Part shown: positions 47,645 to 52,027 of the stretch, one piece after another | Layout: every line of letters begins with the position of its first letter | Position numbering within the stretch: the stretch's first letter is position 1 | DNA from: Saprospiraceae bacterium | GTDB taxonomy: Bacteria > Bacteroidota > Bacteroidia > Chitinophagales > Saprospiraceae | Direction: 5' to 3' | Length of the DNA stretch: 52,234 nt | Assembly: GCA_027488855.1 (NCBI GenBank) | Contig: JAIYAV010000335.1 | Coordinates: 1 to 52,234 of the forward strand | Notes under the pieces: generated by a model | What the model saw: only the letters and a program-made list of their open reading frames with translations | Told to the model about the DNA's origin: nothing | Databases searched by the model: none | Position numbers and translations under genes: made by a program

Positions 47645-48916
47645 ATGAAGTTGTTCAACAAACGCCAATTTTTACAAACCATCGCCACGCTCAGCGGGGG
47701 AGCCATACTTCCGACCCAATCTATGGAATCATTTTTTCAGGAAATCGAACACATCCAGCCGCAGGAATTGGCCCAGGATGATGCTTTTTGGCAAAAAATC
47801 CGTGGGGCCTATGGTGTAACCAAGGATTTTATCCAGCTCGAAAACGGCTATTACTCCCTGGCAGCCAAGGAGGTATTGGACAACTACATCGGGCACATTC
47901 AGCGCGTCAACGCCGTTTCGTCCTACTACATGCGCACCCGGCAAGGGGAGGACAAATTGGCTTCTCGGCAAGCCTTAGCGCGTTTGTTGGGCTGCCCCAT
48001 CGAAGAACTCATCATCACCCGCAATACCACCGAATCGCTCGATACCATCATCGCAGGCATCGACTGGAAACCCGGCGACGAAGCTCTGATGGCCGAACAG
48101 GATTACGGTGCCATGCTGGACATGTTCAAACTCCAGGCGCGGCGCTATGGGATTGTGAACAAAATGGTATCGGTGCCACTTCATCCCGCTTCAGATGAAG
48201 AGATTGTGACGCTTTACGAAAAAGCCATCACTCCAAAGACCCGCCTCTTGATGATCTGCCACCTGATCAACATCACTGGACACATTTTGCCCGTGAAAAA
48301 AATTGTGGATATGGCCCATCGCTACGGGGTAGAGGTGATGGTGGATGGGGCGCACGCCTTTGCGCACCTGGACTTTAAAATCAGCGATCTGGGTTGTGAT
48401 TATTACGGCACTAGTTTGCACAAGTGGCTGGGTAACCCACTGGGTGCGGGTATTTTGTACGTGCGCAAAGAGAAAATCGCCAAAATCTGGCAACTCTTCG
48501 GCGACATGGGTTATGCCGACGACGACATCCGCAAACTCAACCACACCGGCACCCACCCCGTTGCCACCGACCTGGCCATTCTGGACGCCATCCGCTTTCA
48601 CGAAATGATTGGCATTCAACGCAAGGAAGCGCGTTTGCGTTACCTGCAACACTACTGGACGGATCAGGTGCGCAATCACCCCAAAATCATGCTCAATACT
48701 CCTGCCGATCCCCAACGTTCTTGTGGCATTGCCAACGTAGGCATCCAGGGCATCAAACCCGCCGACCTGGCGAAGACCTTGATGGAAAAATACAAAATTT
48801 TCACCGTGGCGATCGATTATGCGAATGTACACGGGGTGCGGGTGACGCCGCATTTGTACGTGAGCACGAAGGAGTTGGATGTGTTTGTGGGGGCATTGAA
48901 GGAATTGGCGGGGTGA
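47645..48916 (+). CDS. class V aminotransferase-like PLP enzyme (isopenicillin N epimerase-like)
   Basis: I start at the ATG 47645, giving 423 residues. The longer frame would overlap the divergent DUF1684 start. The N-terminus (FNKRQFLQTIATLSGGAILP) looks like a Tat or Sec signal with a KR pair, so it may be exported. PLP marks are ITRNTTESLDTIIAG, VMVDGAHAFAHLDF (Asp of the pyridine contact) and YYGTSLHKWLG (Lys that forms the aldimine). Related enzymes are cysteine desulfurases, epimerases and aminotransferases; the substrate is unknown. It diverges from the DUF1684 gene with 84 bases between starts. Confidence 0.88.
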   Translation: MKLFNKRQFLQTIATLSGGAILPTQSMESFFQEIEHIQPQELAQDDAFWQKIRGAYGVTKDFIQLENGYYSLAAKEVLDNYIGHIQRVNAVSSYYMRTRQGEDKLASRQALARLLGCPIEELIITRNTTESLDTIIAGIDWKPGDEALMAEQDYGAMLDMFKLQARRYGIVNKMVSVPLHPASDEEIVTLYEKAITPKTRLLMICHLINITGHILPVKKIVDMAHRYGVEVMVDGAHAFAHLDFKISDLGCDYYGTSLHKWLGNPLGAGILYVRKEKIAKIWQLFGDMGYADDDIRKLNHTGTHPVATDLAILDAIRFHEMIGIQRKEARLRYLQHYWTDQVRNHPKIMLNTPADPQRSCGIANVGIQGIKPADLAKTLMEKYKIFTVAIDYANVHGVRVTPHLYVSTKELDVFVGALKELAG

Positions 48917-48932
48917 TAGATTACAACACTAT

Positions 48933-50597
48933 TTATTGTTCATGCTTGAGCAATTCCTGTATACTGGCTTTAAACCATTCAGTTTTGGCTAAATCATGCT
49001 TTGAGATATTTTGCCGCTGGGGTAGTTGAGTACAATAGGTCTTCATAGGGAGCGATTTATAGAAGGTTTCGAACTTATCGCTACTCAAATAAGCGCTTAT
49101 TATTTGGGACTGTGCTTCGTTTTCACCTTTGTTTTTAAATCGATTTTGCAGCGCACTACCATTGTATTCCGGTTCTCCAAAATAAGGAAGTTCAGTTCTT
49201 TTCAGGGCTAATGAGGGGATAATGGCATTGATTTGCTGATTTTTTGAAATTGTAAGTTGCTGGATGTATTCCTCTTTATTAAATGGCTTGCCTACCTTCG
49301 AATTATACTCGGACAAGTTATCTGGATGATATAAGTAGTTTTCAATGCTGTAATAATTTAGCAAATGAAGCTTAGGGTATTTTTTGCGAATTTGCACAAT
49401 ATCATCATCACTCAGAAAATCTCTGTCTACAATTCCACGATAATTACTCGTCCTGGTCTTGTGATAAACACTATTCCGGTTATTCTCAGACACAAAGACA
49501 GTAGAAGGTATCCCTAAATTGGCATAATAATCACGATCTCTATTTTCAACAAAAATGATCTTCATGTGCTGAAATAGCGACGGTAAAAATTCTCTTCCGA
49601 CTGCTATTTCGTAAACATTAGAATTGTTTTTAGGCTCTGGAGTTAGAATGCGTGGATAATCAAAGTCCAAATCATCAAAATCAATAATGACAGCATTATC
49701 GCTTTGATTGGCGTATTCAATGAATCCAAGGGAGTGGCTTGCCGTCCACAATTGGCAGTTTTCTGGTATCCAGTTTTCTGCAATTTCTTTGATTAAATTG
49801 TATTGAATTTTGGTATTGAGATGTAAGTCCATCTCATCCAGGTAGTAGATGGTATCTTGGTAAAGAGTACCTCGGCTCAATAAATTGATAATCAAATTAA
49901 AAACCTCTTTTTCACCCGCGCTCAAATAATTGTAGTGGATTTCCGAAGCACCTTTGCGGAAATTAATCTGTGCCATTTTACCTTCAAGCGGTGGAATGAT
50001 TTCCAATAGCTCCAATTTTGTGCCATTCCCAGTTCCAAAAATATTTTGTAGTGCAGAGTTAATGGGGTCAATGTACTTCTGCCTAATTTGAGTATTAGAT
50101 TGTTGAGATCGAAAAAATTCTTTCAAAATAATTTCTGTTATTTTCTCGATGTCATTTTCAAAGCGATTGTCTCGTTCTATGAAAAATTTTGGTCGATCTG
50201 AGTCTTTTTGAAAGTCAATATTTCCTCCTTGCCCTAAAGAAGTTCTAGTCAAGCGAGGAATTTGTCTAAAACTAGTTCTGCCATAAAAAGTTGTTGGACT
50301 AAGTTCGAGCTTTTGAAATTGGTCATTTGAAATTATCAATTCAAGATTGTTATCAAGTGTTACATTTACACTAACCGCTTTATCCTGCTGCTTCTTAAAG
50401 TAGCTCCAATAACTATCATTTATGCTATTATCTAATTTTATAGCGCTATCAATAAATCCAAAAGCATCAAAAATAGATGACTTGCCAGAGCCATTAGAAC
50501 CAATAAGCAAGACCAATTTTGAATCGCTGGGTATATTGTCAATCAAAAGATCTGTAAATCTTTTGAAATTCGTTACCTGTATCTTTGTTATTCTCAT
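48933..50597 (-). CDS. AAA15-type ATPase fused to DUF4435/TOPRIM-like domain (PARIS-like defence candidate)
   Basis: From the ATG at 50597 (MRITKIQVTNFKRF) the product has 554 residues. Residues 1-335 are an SMC/ABC-like AAA ATPase: Walker A GSNGSGKSS (33-41), signature LSAGEKE (225-231), Walker B IYYLDEMDLHL (Asp254, Glu255) and TASHSL (His288). Residues of about 340-554 match the DUF4435 pattern: IIFVENRDRDYY (Glu351), GIVDRDF (Asp391, Asp393) and YSIENYL (Glu419). AriA (AAA15) and AriB (DUF4435) of the PARIS anti-phage system have this composition, and single-chain forms exist. The gene is visibly richer in A and T than its neighbours, which fits transfer. It could instead be another OLD-like ATPase-nuclease. 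The stop lies 17 bases from the convergent aminotransferase stop. Confidence 0.75.
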   Translation of the reverse strand: MRITKIQVTNFKRFTDLLIDNIPSDSKLVLLIGSNGSGKSSIFDAFGFIDSAIKLDNSINDSYWSYFKKQQDKAVSVNVTLDNNLELIISNDQFQKLELSPTTFYGRTSFRQIPRLTRTSLGQGGNIDFQKDSDRPKFFIERDNRFENDIEKITEIILKEFFRSQQSNTQIRQKYIDPINSALQNIFGTGNGTKLELLEIIPPLEGKMAQINFRKGASEIHYNYLSAGEKEVFNLIINLLSRGTLYQDTIYYLDEMDLHLNTKIQYNLIKEIAENWIPENCQLWTASHSLGFIEYANQSDNAVIIDFDDLDFDYPRILTPEPKNNSNVYEIAVGREFLPSLFQHMKIIFVENRDRDYYANLGIPSTVFVSENNRNSVYHKTRTSNYRGIVDRDFLSDDDIVQIRKKYPKLHLLNYYSIENYLYHPDNLSEYNSKVGKPFNKEEYIQQLTISKNQQINAIIPSLALKRTELPYFGEPEYNGSALQNRFKNKGENEAQSQIISAYLSSDKFETFYKSLPMKTYCTQLPQRQNISKHDLAKTEWFKASIQELLKHEQ

Positions 50598-50614
50598 TTT
50601 GGTTGTATCTCTTG

Positions 50615-50622
50615 CAAATTTA
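50615..50622 (-). promoter_or_regulatory. -7 promoter element before the AAA15-DUF4435 gene
   Basis: On the minus strand this reads TAAATTTG, matching TAnnTTTG, and lies 18 bases before the ATG at 50597. The -33 position is not convincing. The gene may also be read from the MATE gene 41 bases upstream. Confidence 0.35.
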
Positions 50623-50638
50623 TGAATTTTTGGGCAAA

Positions 50639-52027
50639 CTACACCGCAATCTCCTTCCACTTCCCCTTCCGAAAAATCACAATCAAAACCACCGCTAACA
50701 AACTTTCACTAGCAGGCACTGCAATACAAATGCCCAGCACTTCCAAATCCATCGTTATGGCAAGAAAATAGGCCAGCGGGATTTCAACCAACCAAAAGCA
50801 GACGAAATTTGCAATCATCGGCGTTCGGGTGTCCCCGGCACCGTTGAATGCCTGGCTGATCACCATCCCGAAGGAGTACATGACGTTGCCAATACTGAGG
50901 ATGCGCAGGGTCATTACCCCTATCTTGGTAACTTGGGGCAGATCGGTGAAAAAGGTCATAAAAAAGGGCGCAAAAACAATACATATCGCCGAAACGCCCA
51001 GCAAAAAGATCGTATTGAAATACCCGGCGCGCCAGGCCGATGTTTCTGCTCGATCGGGTTGTTTGGCCCCCAGGTTTTGACCTACCAGCGTTGCTGCGGC
51101 ATTCGCCAGACCCCAGGAAGGCAACAATGCAAAAATGATCACCCGAATGCCAATGGTATAGCCCGCCACCGACTCGCTGCCAAAGCGCGAAATGATGCGC
51201 ATCAAAAAAATCCAACTCGCCGAAGCAATGATGAACTGAATCGCCCCTGATCCTGATACCTCCAACAAACGTTTGATGATGCCCCAATCAATTTTCATCA
51301 GTTTGGGTTTAATTTGAATGGCCCCTTTGCCCCAAAACAGGTTGTACAACTGGTAAAGCACCCCAATGCTGCGGCCGGTAGTAGTCGCTATAGCAGCTCC
51401 GGTTACACCCATTGCTGGAATCGGACCCAGGCCAAATATAAAAATCGGATCCAAAATGATGTTCAATCCGTTTGCGATCAAGAGTGTCCGCATGGCTATT
51501 GCAGGATCACCCGCGCCTCGGAACACCCCATTGAGCAAAAACAACAGCAAGATCACCACATTAGAGCCAAACATGATGCGTACAAAGTTGAGGCCTGTTT
51601 TGATTACCTCCGGGCTAGCCCCCATAAAACGCAGGATGTCTTCGGCGAAAATGACGCCAAGAATCCCCATTGCAACACCAAAAATTACTCCGACCATCAA
51701 GGCTTGAAATGCGGTAAAAGAGGCCGCCTCGGGATTTTTTTCACCAATGCGCCGCGCCACCAAGGCCGTAGCTCCAGCACTACAACCAATCGCAACCGAA
51801 TAAATGAGGGTGAGAATCGCTTCGGTGAGCCCAATGGTGGTAACAGCATCTACACTCACCTGAGAGACGAAAAAGATGTCGACCAGTGCAAACAAGGATT
51901 CCATAAACATCTCAATGACCATGGGAATGGCCAAAATGAAGAGGGCTTGGTTTAAATTGCCAGTCGTGTAATCGCGCTCTTTGCCTTTGATCGCGTCGAG
52001 GATAATGGTCAGAGTTGAATCTTGCAT
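50639..52027 (-). CDS. MATE family efflux transporter
   Basis: A 462-residue protein with about 12 transmembrane helices and the two-fold MATE repeat: NQALFILAIPMVIEMFMESL and AIGCSAGATALVARRIGEK in the first half, AAATLVGQNLGAKQPDRAE and SQAFNGAGDTRTP in the second. It should export organic cations or drugs against H+ or Na+. The gene is transcribed toward the AAA15-DUF4435 gene with a 41-base gap, so the two may be co-transcribed. Confidence 0.9.
   Translation of the reverse strand: MQDSTLTIILDAIKGKERDYTTGNLNQALFILAIPMVIEMFMESLFALVDIFFVSQVSVDAVTTIGLTEAILTLIYSVAIGCSAGATALVARRIGEKNPEAASFTAFQALMVGVIFGVAMGILGVIFAEDILRFMGASPEVIKTGLNFVRIMFGSNVVILLLFLLNGVFRGAGDPAIAMRTLLIANGLNIILDPIFIFGLGPIPAMGVTGAAIATTTGRSIGVLYQLYNLFWGKGAIQIKPKLMKIDWGIIKRLLEVSGSGAIQFIIASASWIFLMRIISRFGSESVAGYTIGIRVIIFALLPSWGLANAAATLVGQNLGAKQPDRAETSAWRAGYFNTIFLLGVSAICIVFAPFFMTFFTDLPQVTKIGVMTLRILSIGNVMYSFGMVISQAFNGAGDTRTPMIANFVCFWLVEIPLAYFLAITMDLEVLGICIAVPASESLLAVVLIVIFRKGKWKEIAV

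Follow-up and report, generated by a model that had tools for sequence, protein, structure and literature searches.

In the PARIS system, a hexamer of AriA holds AriB, a trigger releases AriB, and AriB dimers then cut tRNA; AriB is a two-metal TOPRIM ribonuclease, and its E26A mutant is inactive (accessible part of PMC12409363). Fusions of AriA and AriB are already in print (accessible parts of PMC9122126 and PMC12409363), as the first-pass annotation of the DNA analysed here had stated, and the accessible part of PMC10568477 calls it unclear whether fused AriAB acts in the manner of PARIS or of class 1 OLD. The latter is encoded by a single gene, with an N-terminal ABC-type ATPase and a C-terminal TOPRIM domain in one chain. 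Two further systems enter the comparison: the PtuA ATPases of retrons and Septu, which pair with PtuB, a separate nuclease carrying an HNH domain (accessible part of PMC12409363), and Detocs, the best-described form of which has an ATP-cleaving PNP effector (accessible part of PMC11249213). The family of ATPase-TOPRIM proteins described below bears on the question raised in PMC10568477.

The window (the whole stretch of DNA analysed, 52,234 nucleotides from a Saprospiraceae bacterium) carries on its minus strand a real open reading frame for a single chain that combines an ATPase half (residues 1-331) and a TOPRIM-like half (residues 338-554), as had been proposed from the sequence (Table 1). 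According to the list of open reading frames and the translation, the coding part spans 48936-50597, with an ATG at 50597 and the stop codon at 48933-48935, and the plus strand across the region contains many stop codons. A GTG at 50660 opens a longer frame of the same gene; the ATG at 50597 was taken as the start because the homologues agree on it (M1 and I3 are nearly invariant).

Table 1. Position and conservation of the features of the ATPase-TOPRIM gene and of its site, in window coordinates (counts are numbers of aligned proteins or domains)
Feature	Position	Strand	Evidence or conservation
ATPase-TOPRIM gene	48933..50597	minus	554 aa; start as in homologues
Segment missing from the corresponding site of sister genome G151	48917..50638	.	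DNA alignment
ATPase domain, residues 1-331	49605..50597	minus	Pfam; AlphaFold2 model confident apart from loops
Walker A GSNGSGKSS, residues 33-41	50475..50501	minus	G33, N35, G38, K39 invariant in 50
ABC signature LSAGEKE, residues 225-231	49905..49925	minus	L 49, S 45, A 28, G 50, E 49, K 49, E 36 of 50 rows
Walker B D254-E255	49833..49838	minus	invariant in 50
Flexible hinge, residues 332-337	49587..49604	minus	only listed segment with pLDDT < 50
TOPRIM (AriB/DUF4435-like) domain, residues 338-554	48936..49586	minus	model; PADLOC AriB 1e-5; Foldseek
E351, first TOPRIM glutamate	49545..49547	minus	invariant in the 50-row ATPase-type set, the 31-row cross-platform set and the 17-row set that adds distant DUF4435-like proteins
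D391-R392-D393 (DxD)	49419..49427	minus	50, 49 and 49 of 50; all invariant in the 17-row set
E419 of the YSIENYL motif	49341..49343	minus	invariant in the 50-, 31- and 17-row sets

Within the first 293 residues, three Pfam profiles matched above their cut-offs (SMC_N, 2.1e-12; AAA_21, 1.5e-11, 45.3 bits against a cut-off of 27; AAA_15, 4.8e-10, 40 bits against a cut-off of 32.1), so that an ATPase of the AriA type is recognised by Pfam. The Walker A, signature and Walker B motifs named in the first-pass annotation are all present with their key residues, and the positions invariant in the 50 aligned ATPase-type proteins comprise those of Walker A and Walker B (Table 1), G228 of the signature, H288, and E351, D391 and E419 of the TOPRIM half; in the signature, L, S, G, E and K are conserved and A227 and E231 are variable. 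Judged by these profiles and motifs, residues 1-331 are a complete SMC/ABC-type ATPase of the AriA class. The AlphaFold2 model of the full-length protein (50 sequences) reached a mean pLDDT of 88.4 and a pTM of 0.61. Among the best 50 of its 1066 Foldseek matches, retron PtuA defence ATPases ranked first, and Septu PtuA, SMC, cohesin and Rad50 heads were also present. PtuA is likewise the second-best PADLOC match for the ATPase half, but the window ATPase has a fused TOPRIM domain in place of a separate partner nuclease.

The four acidic residues proposed earlier for the TOPRIM candidate (Glu351, Asp391, Asp393 and Glu419) held up in the 50-protein alignment, the one exception at D393 being a tyrosine in L054. 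Across 31 TOPRIM domains from all platforms (see below), no variation is seen at E351, F368, D391, Y416 or E419, and the conservation of D393 is 90% or higher; in an alignment of 17 rows that includes stand-alone and distant DUF4435-like proteins, only E351, D391, R392, D393 and E419 are invariant. E351 would be the counterpart of E26 of AriB.

The AlphaFold2 model of residues 335-554 (31 sequences; pLDDT 93.7, pTM 0.90) starts with alternating strands and helices. Pfam gave no match to this region, DUF4435 (PF14491) included, either in the whole protein or in the isolated domain, and among 4 aligned members the best DUF4435 value was 0.031, in one of them. The lack of a DUF4435 match had been named beforehand as an outcome that would count against the proposal, and for Pfam it is literally the case; in our view it is outweighed by the AriB model of PADLOC, by the relatives and by the fold, on which the DUF4435 label therefore rests. 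The AriB model matched the isolated window domain with an E-value of 1e-5 and was the sole PADLOC model to match it at E <=0.01; of the 31 TOPRIM rows it matched 16 at this threshold and left 15 without a match. Among the relatives, the distant L092, which came from a search with the domain alignment A2, matched DUF4435 at 6.7e-10 over residues 366-559, i.e., at the corresponding place, and reached 256 bits with the AriAB model. The 31-row TOPRIM profile also found two stand-alone proteins, L125 and L126 (277 and 290 residues), of which L126 showed weak OLD-TOPRIM and DUF4435 matches and L125 neither, a bridge to DUF4435 that is not fully independent because L092 is among the 31 rows of the profile.

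The structural comparison suggested by the first-pass annotation placed PARIS at the top for the C-terminal model, at low scores: chain 8ux9_A was the first Foldseek match (E 3.1e-3, probability 0.98), chain 8v46_D the second (0.032, 0.85) and the OLD TOPRIM domain of 6nk8 the third and fourth, with no E-value below 0.001, TM-scores of 0.28-0.37 and an rmsd of 13-15 A for these four. Both PARIS chains were taken as AriB because they are 306 and 305 residues long, the AriA chains in those entries having 464 residues. Sequence profiles of the TOPRIM domain did not reach AriB in the PDB and returned chance-like matches only, e.g., maltose-binding fusions.

The search for merged PARIS models with PADLOC, also suggested earlier, yielded the AriB match given above and, for the whole protein, 62 bits (E 1.1e-17) with the AriAB model PDLC02981; this model fires in 14/14 control genomes and has 26 matches in the host genome, so that the AriAB match is not to be leaned on, and the AriAB score was dropped as proof of PARIS. 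The second model, PDLC02982, gave 20.4 bits for one stretch and fires in 6/14 control genomes. The published thresholds for fused AriAB are 80 or 20 bits (accessible part of PMC9122126), to be set beside 62 for PDLC02981 and 20.4 for PDLC02982, and the pairing of these thresholds with the PADLOC models is ambiguous. Single stretches of other ATPases outscore single stretches of the gene with AriAB, which is not comparable to the 62 bits of the whole protein. In the genome search, one stretch of a 646-aa ATPase of the same genome (L132:1201-3138, G000:C145), OLD-like by eye (WVEGPTE, FDKEG), beats any single stretch of the window gene with this model.

We consider it probable that the gene encodes a divergent single-polypeptide PARIS-like protein of abortive-infection defence with a portable nuclease effector and, by analogy, the protein likely works like PARIS. 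As originally proposed, one chain joins the two activities: its ATPase belongs to the AAA_15/AAA_21 class, and its TOPRIM domain is AriB-like and has the E-DxD-E residues. The differences from PARIS are that the window TOPRIM domain is too divergent for a Pfam match to DUF4435, that the protein has the lower score with the non-specific AriAB model when compared with L092, that its TOPRIM domain has about 217 residues as against 305-306 in the PDB chains taken as AriB, that a module of the window type is also found on non-ATPase sensors, and that release of AriB is impossible in a single chain. That the gene is instead a class 1 OLD-like single-gene ATPase-TOPRIM nuclease, directed at DNA and not RNA and working through an ATPase dimer with nicking or exonuclease activity, appears unlikely: although the domain order is identical, the OLD TOPRIM domain of 6nk8 is near the top of the C-terminal fold list, and single genes away from other candidate defence genes are the rule for class 1 OLD (accessible part of PMC10568477), PARIS chains stand above OLD in the Foldseek ranking, no other PADLOC model than AriB matches the isolated domain at E <=0.01, and OLD-like_TOPRIM (PF20469) did not match the window protein in Pfam.

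The domain make-up, the conservation of the active-site residues, the mobility and the exchange of modules are seen in the sequences themselves; for nuclease activity, substrate, trigger, oligomer and defence, we infer the following scheme under the PARIS-like reading. The SMC/ABC-type ATPase half would be sensor and lock, binding ATP, forming an oligomer and keeping the TOPRIM half inactive. During phage infection, a phage-made trigger would alter the ATPase half, and the TOPRIM half would then become an active metal-dependent nuclease by means of E351, D391, D393 and E419, most likely cutting RNA (tRNA, as AriB does), with the consequence that growth would stop and the phage could not multiply. 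Because the two halves are in one chain, which precludes release in the manner of AriB, activation would be a rearrangement within the oligomer, and the flexible hinge between the halves (Table 1) fits such an internal rearrangement. The TOPRIM half would be a portable effector, moved between ATPases and onto other sensor platforms.

Sixty-five loci were sorted by the N-terminal part that precedes the TOPRIM module (ATPase fusions being assigned by alignment or reading, not each by Pfam). ATPase fusions make up 51/65 loci (L048, L055 and L057 are broken) and LRR-Roc-COR fusions 7/65 (L073, L076, L077, L078, L079, L084 and L089), and an N-terminal platform of about 700 residues with a coiled-coil-like part is present in 4/65 (L071, L072, L082 and L088; L124 is a fifth case). 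The remaining loci are one receiver-domain fusion (L083), one long AAA_15 protein whose middle part resembles a coiled coil (L090, for which the Pfam result comes from L027, taken as its counterpart) and one with an N-terminus of unrecognised kind (L080).

LRR-Roc-COR (Roco) GTPases are bacterial relatives of LRRK2, and to our knowledge their functions in bacteria are mostly open. In L079:8057-10585, L073, L076 and L077, the TOPRIM module forms the C-terminal end of such a GTPase, and in L084 and L089 the module is in a different frame from the Roco part, which shares 57% and 67% identity, respectively, with L079; L026, taken as the counterpart of L078/L079, matched Roc, COR-A, COR-B and LRR above the Pfam cut-offs. 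The Roco parts of L078 and L079 are identical and carry the labels Thermodesulfobacteriota and Saprospiraceae, respectively, so one of the two is probably misbinned. The platform of about 700 residues gave no meaningful match in Pfam (L071, L082, L088) or PADLOC (L071, L088); in L124 there is a weak PIN match (E 0.0096, below the cut-off), which is only a hint. In Mucilaginibacter sp. OK268 (L083:5612-10624), two genes matching PDC-M60A (8.9e-82) and PDC-M60B (8e-35) in PADLOC precede a protein whose receiver half matches PDC-M60C (1.5e-17) and is fused to the TOPRIM module. PDC-M60 of PADLOC we take to be Detocs. As the receiver half is of the PDC-M60C type and stands beside PDC-M60A and PDC-M60B, the module takes the position of the effector in a candidate defence operon, which differs in this respect from the best-described Detocs with its PNP effector.

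The presence of the module on several different sensors suggests an interchangeable immune weapon. More specifically, the C-terminal domain may be a portable immune nuclease on SMC-like ATPases, LRR-Roc-COR GTPases, Detocs-like phosphorelay regulators and a PIN-like coiled-coil protein, a reading of these fusions that we put forward tentatively, as a serious possibility. If it is true, some bacterial Roco GTPases, tied by the module to a defence-type nuclease, would be immune sensors with a TOPRIM effector to set off, one that perhaps cuts tRNA, and the direct prediction is that one effector makes the same cleavage whatever sensor it is fused to. No description of the module on Roco or response-regulator platforms was found among the open-licence papers listed, which speaks only weakly for its absence from the literature. 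The fusion in PARIS is itself known; the family shows an AriB-type effector exchanged between sensors, and the breadth of sensor platforms sharing this effector, together with the swapping of halves, looks new as far as these papers go.

A tree of the module was built from 64 sequences (L055, L078, L089 and L092 left out; the window, L123 and L124 added). It unites all rows with other platforms and four ATPase fusions in one supported set of 17 rows (100/97), within the same tree the PIN-like row L082 groups with three Roco rows (97/94), and the six platform labels require 6 changes, the minimum possible being 5, which speaks against frequent platform jumps; no more than one case of a jump is well supported. 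Two gammaproteobacterial assemblies, B20_G6 (L053/L058) and Parabeggiatoa HSG14 (L059/L061), have two ATPase-TOPRIM copies each, and on the module tree these copies are placed beside Emticicia among otherwise mostly Bacteroidota sequences.

Two Caenarcaniphilales assemblies contain tandem ATPase-TOPRIM genes (L074:32-3558 and L086:1-2807), the halves of which are reshuffled mutually and with respect to L087. L087 shares 80% identity in the ATPase and 36% in the TOPRIM half with the second gene of L074, and 46% and 90%, respectively, with the first; the first genes of L074 and L086 share 93% in the ATPase (over 177 residues, the part covered in L086) and 35% in the TOPRIM half, and their second genes 62% and 94%. 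For comparison, TOPRIM-minus-ATPase identity has a mean of -5.2 and an SD of 7.8 over 1225 pairs. L065 and L066 (Bacteroidota assemblies, 4.4-12.5 kb, with a run of common neighbours) share 52% in the ATPase and 76% in the TOPRIM half, and L065 and L052 62% and 36.5%. In the ATPase tree, L065 groups with four rows from Chitinophagaceae (100/99). An AU test on the ATPase half rejected the grouping of L065 with L066 at p 0.016, a value weakened by the choice of this pair after the identities had been seen. From these sequence comparisons, the ATPase and TOPRIM halves seem to recombine, apparently even between tandem neighbours, which would imply a generic coupling of sensor and effector; if true, ATPase-TOPRIM genes evolve by swaps of sensor and effector halves at the hinge. 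The clearest chimaeras, those of L074, L086, L087, L065 and L066, all come from records titled as metagenome assemblies, and assembly error may therefore be a source of them.

The horizontal mobility of the gene is supported by its composition, site and distribution. No other stretch of the window is as AT-rich, in agreement with the earlier impression (GC 0.353 and GC3 0.34; MATE transporter gene, 0.493 and 0.58; aminotransferase gene, 0.525 and 0.66), since the eight lowest-GC stretches of 1662 bp listed all overlap it and the lowest value elsewhere in the window is 0.398; the GC content of the gene is likewise below that of the flanks in 63/64 loci (L078, a duplicate, left out). The DNA alignment with the sister genome G151 (89-90% identity) reaches window position 48912 and resumes at 50639, with six bases between in G151, where the aminotransferase and MATE genes nearly touch; the gene is accessory because this site is empty, and the idea that it occupies the same locus in all relatives, which would have spoken against a defence role, is clearly contradicted. 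Relatives at E<=1e-10 occur in 14/398 genomes of the family sample, which led us to reject housekeeping orthology; the TOPRIM module is found in 3/5 genomes of the genus (one of the five, G150, is 86% complete), and 10/395 genomes of a phylum sample have relatives at E 1e-5, 4 of them strong (own genome included). No relative was present among phage records at 1e-5 or among the 31 and 61 pattern matches in viral contigs. Eight plasmid records matched, all at <60% identity and all from plasmids called non-mobilisable; one of these records aligns over 80% or more of the query, with 29% identity.

Recent acquisition followed by decay and loss of function is improbable for the window gene. Broken relatives do exist: in the G018 copy (L022; 73% identity), codon 26, just before Walker A, is an in-frame TAA, and frame breaks are seen in L055, L057, L084 and L089. 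The window copy, however, has a full open frame, every catalytic residue and the conserved start. Still less probable is an ordinary cellular role as an SMC/RecF-like protein in DNA repair or the maintenance of the chromosome, for although SMC_N and RecF-type matches lie at the N-terminus, the distribution in the family is patchy and the gene was not found in 2/5 of the genus (G150 among the five being incomplete), the site in G151 is empty, the base composition is foreign and the TOPRIM module is exchanged between sensors.

The 64 loci have no constant partner gene, and most of the recurrent neighbours reflect either same-locus cases (L056/L062/L063/L064; L065/L066) or families that are widespread, named by eye (short-chain dehydrogenase in 5 loci, SulP-like transporter in 4). 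At <=5 kb there are DNA methylase (L058, L092), NB-ARC (L046), TIR-NB-ARC (L066) and Fic (L053, L075, L088) genes; these seven loci were picked by eye from the list of recurrent neighbours and thus do not amount to a test of enrichment. No defence gene was seen adjoining the window gene itself. A functional unit with the neighbouring MATE transporter, which the first-pass annotation had considered and which would serve export-linked toxin or immunity, has a negligible probability and was discarded, since, common strand and a distance of 41 bp notwithstanding, G151 has the MATE and aminotransferase genes adjacent without the ATPase-TOPRIM gene, another gene occupies the site in G125, and, for the window MATE protein, neither the 478 neighbour ORFs of the 64 related loci nor the ORFs flanking another six loci gave a match. 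The gene between MATE and aminotransferase in G125 is a Na+/H+ exchanger (L118:3486-5117), and the ATPase-TOPRIM homologue of that genome sits elsewhere. The window aminotransferase has a weak match to four of the 478 neighbour ORFs.
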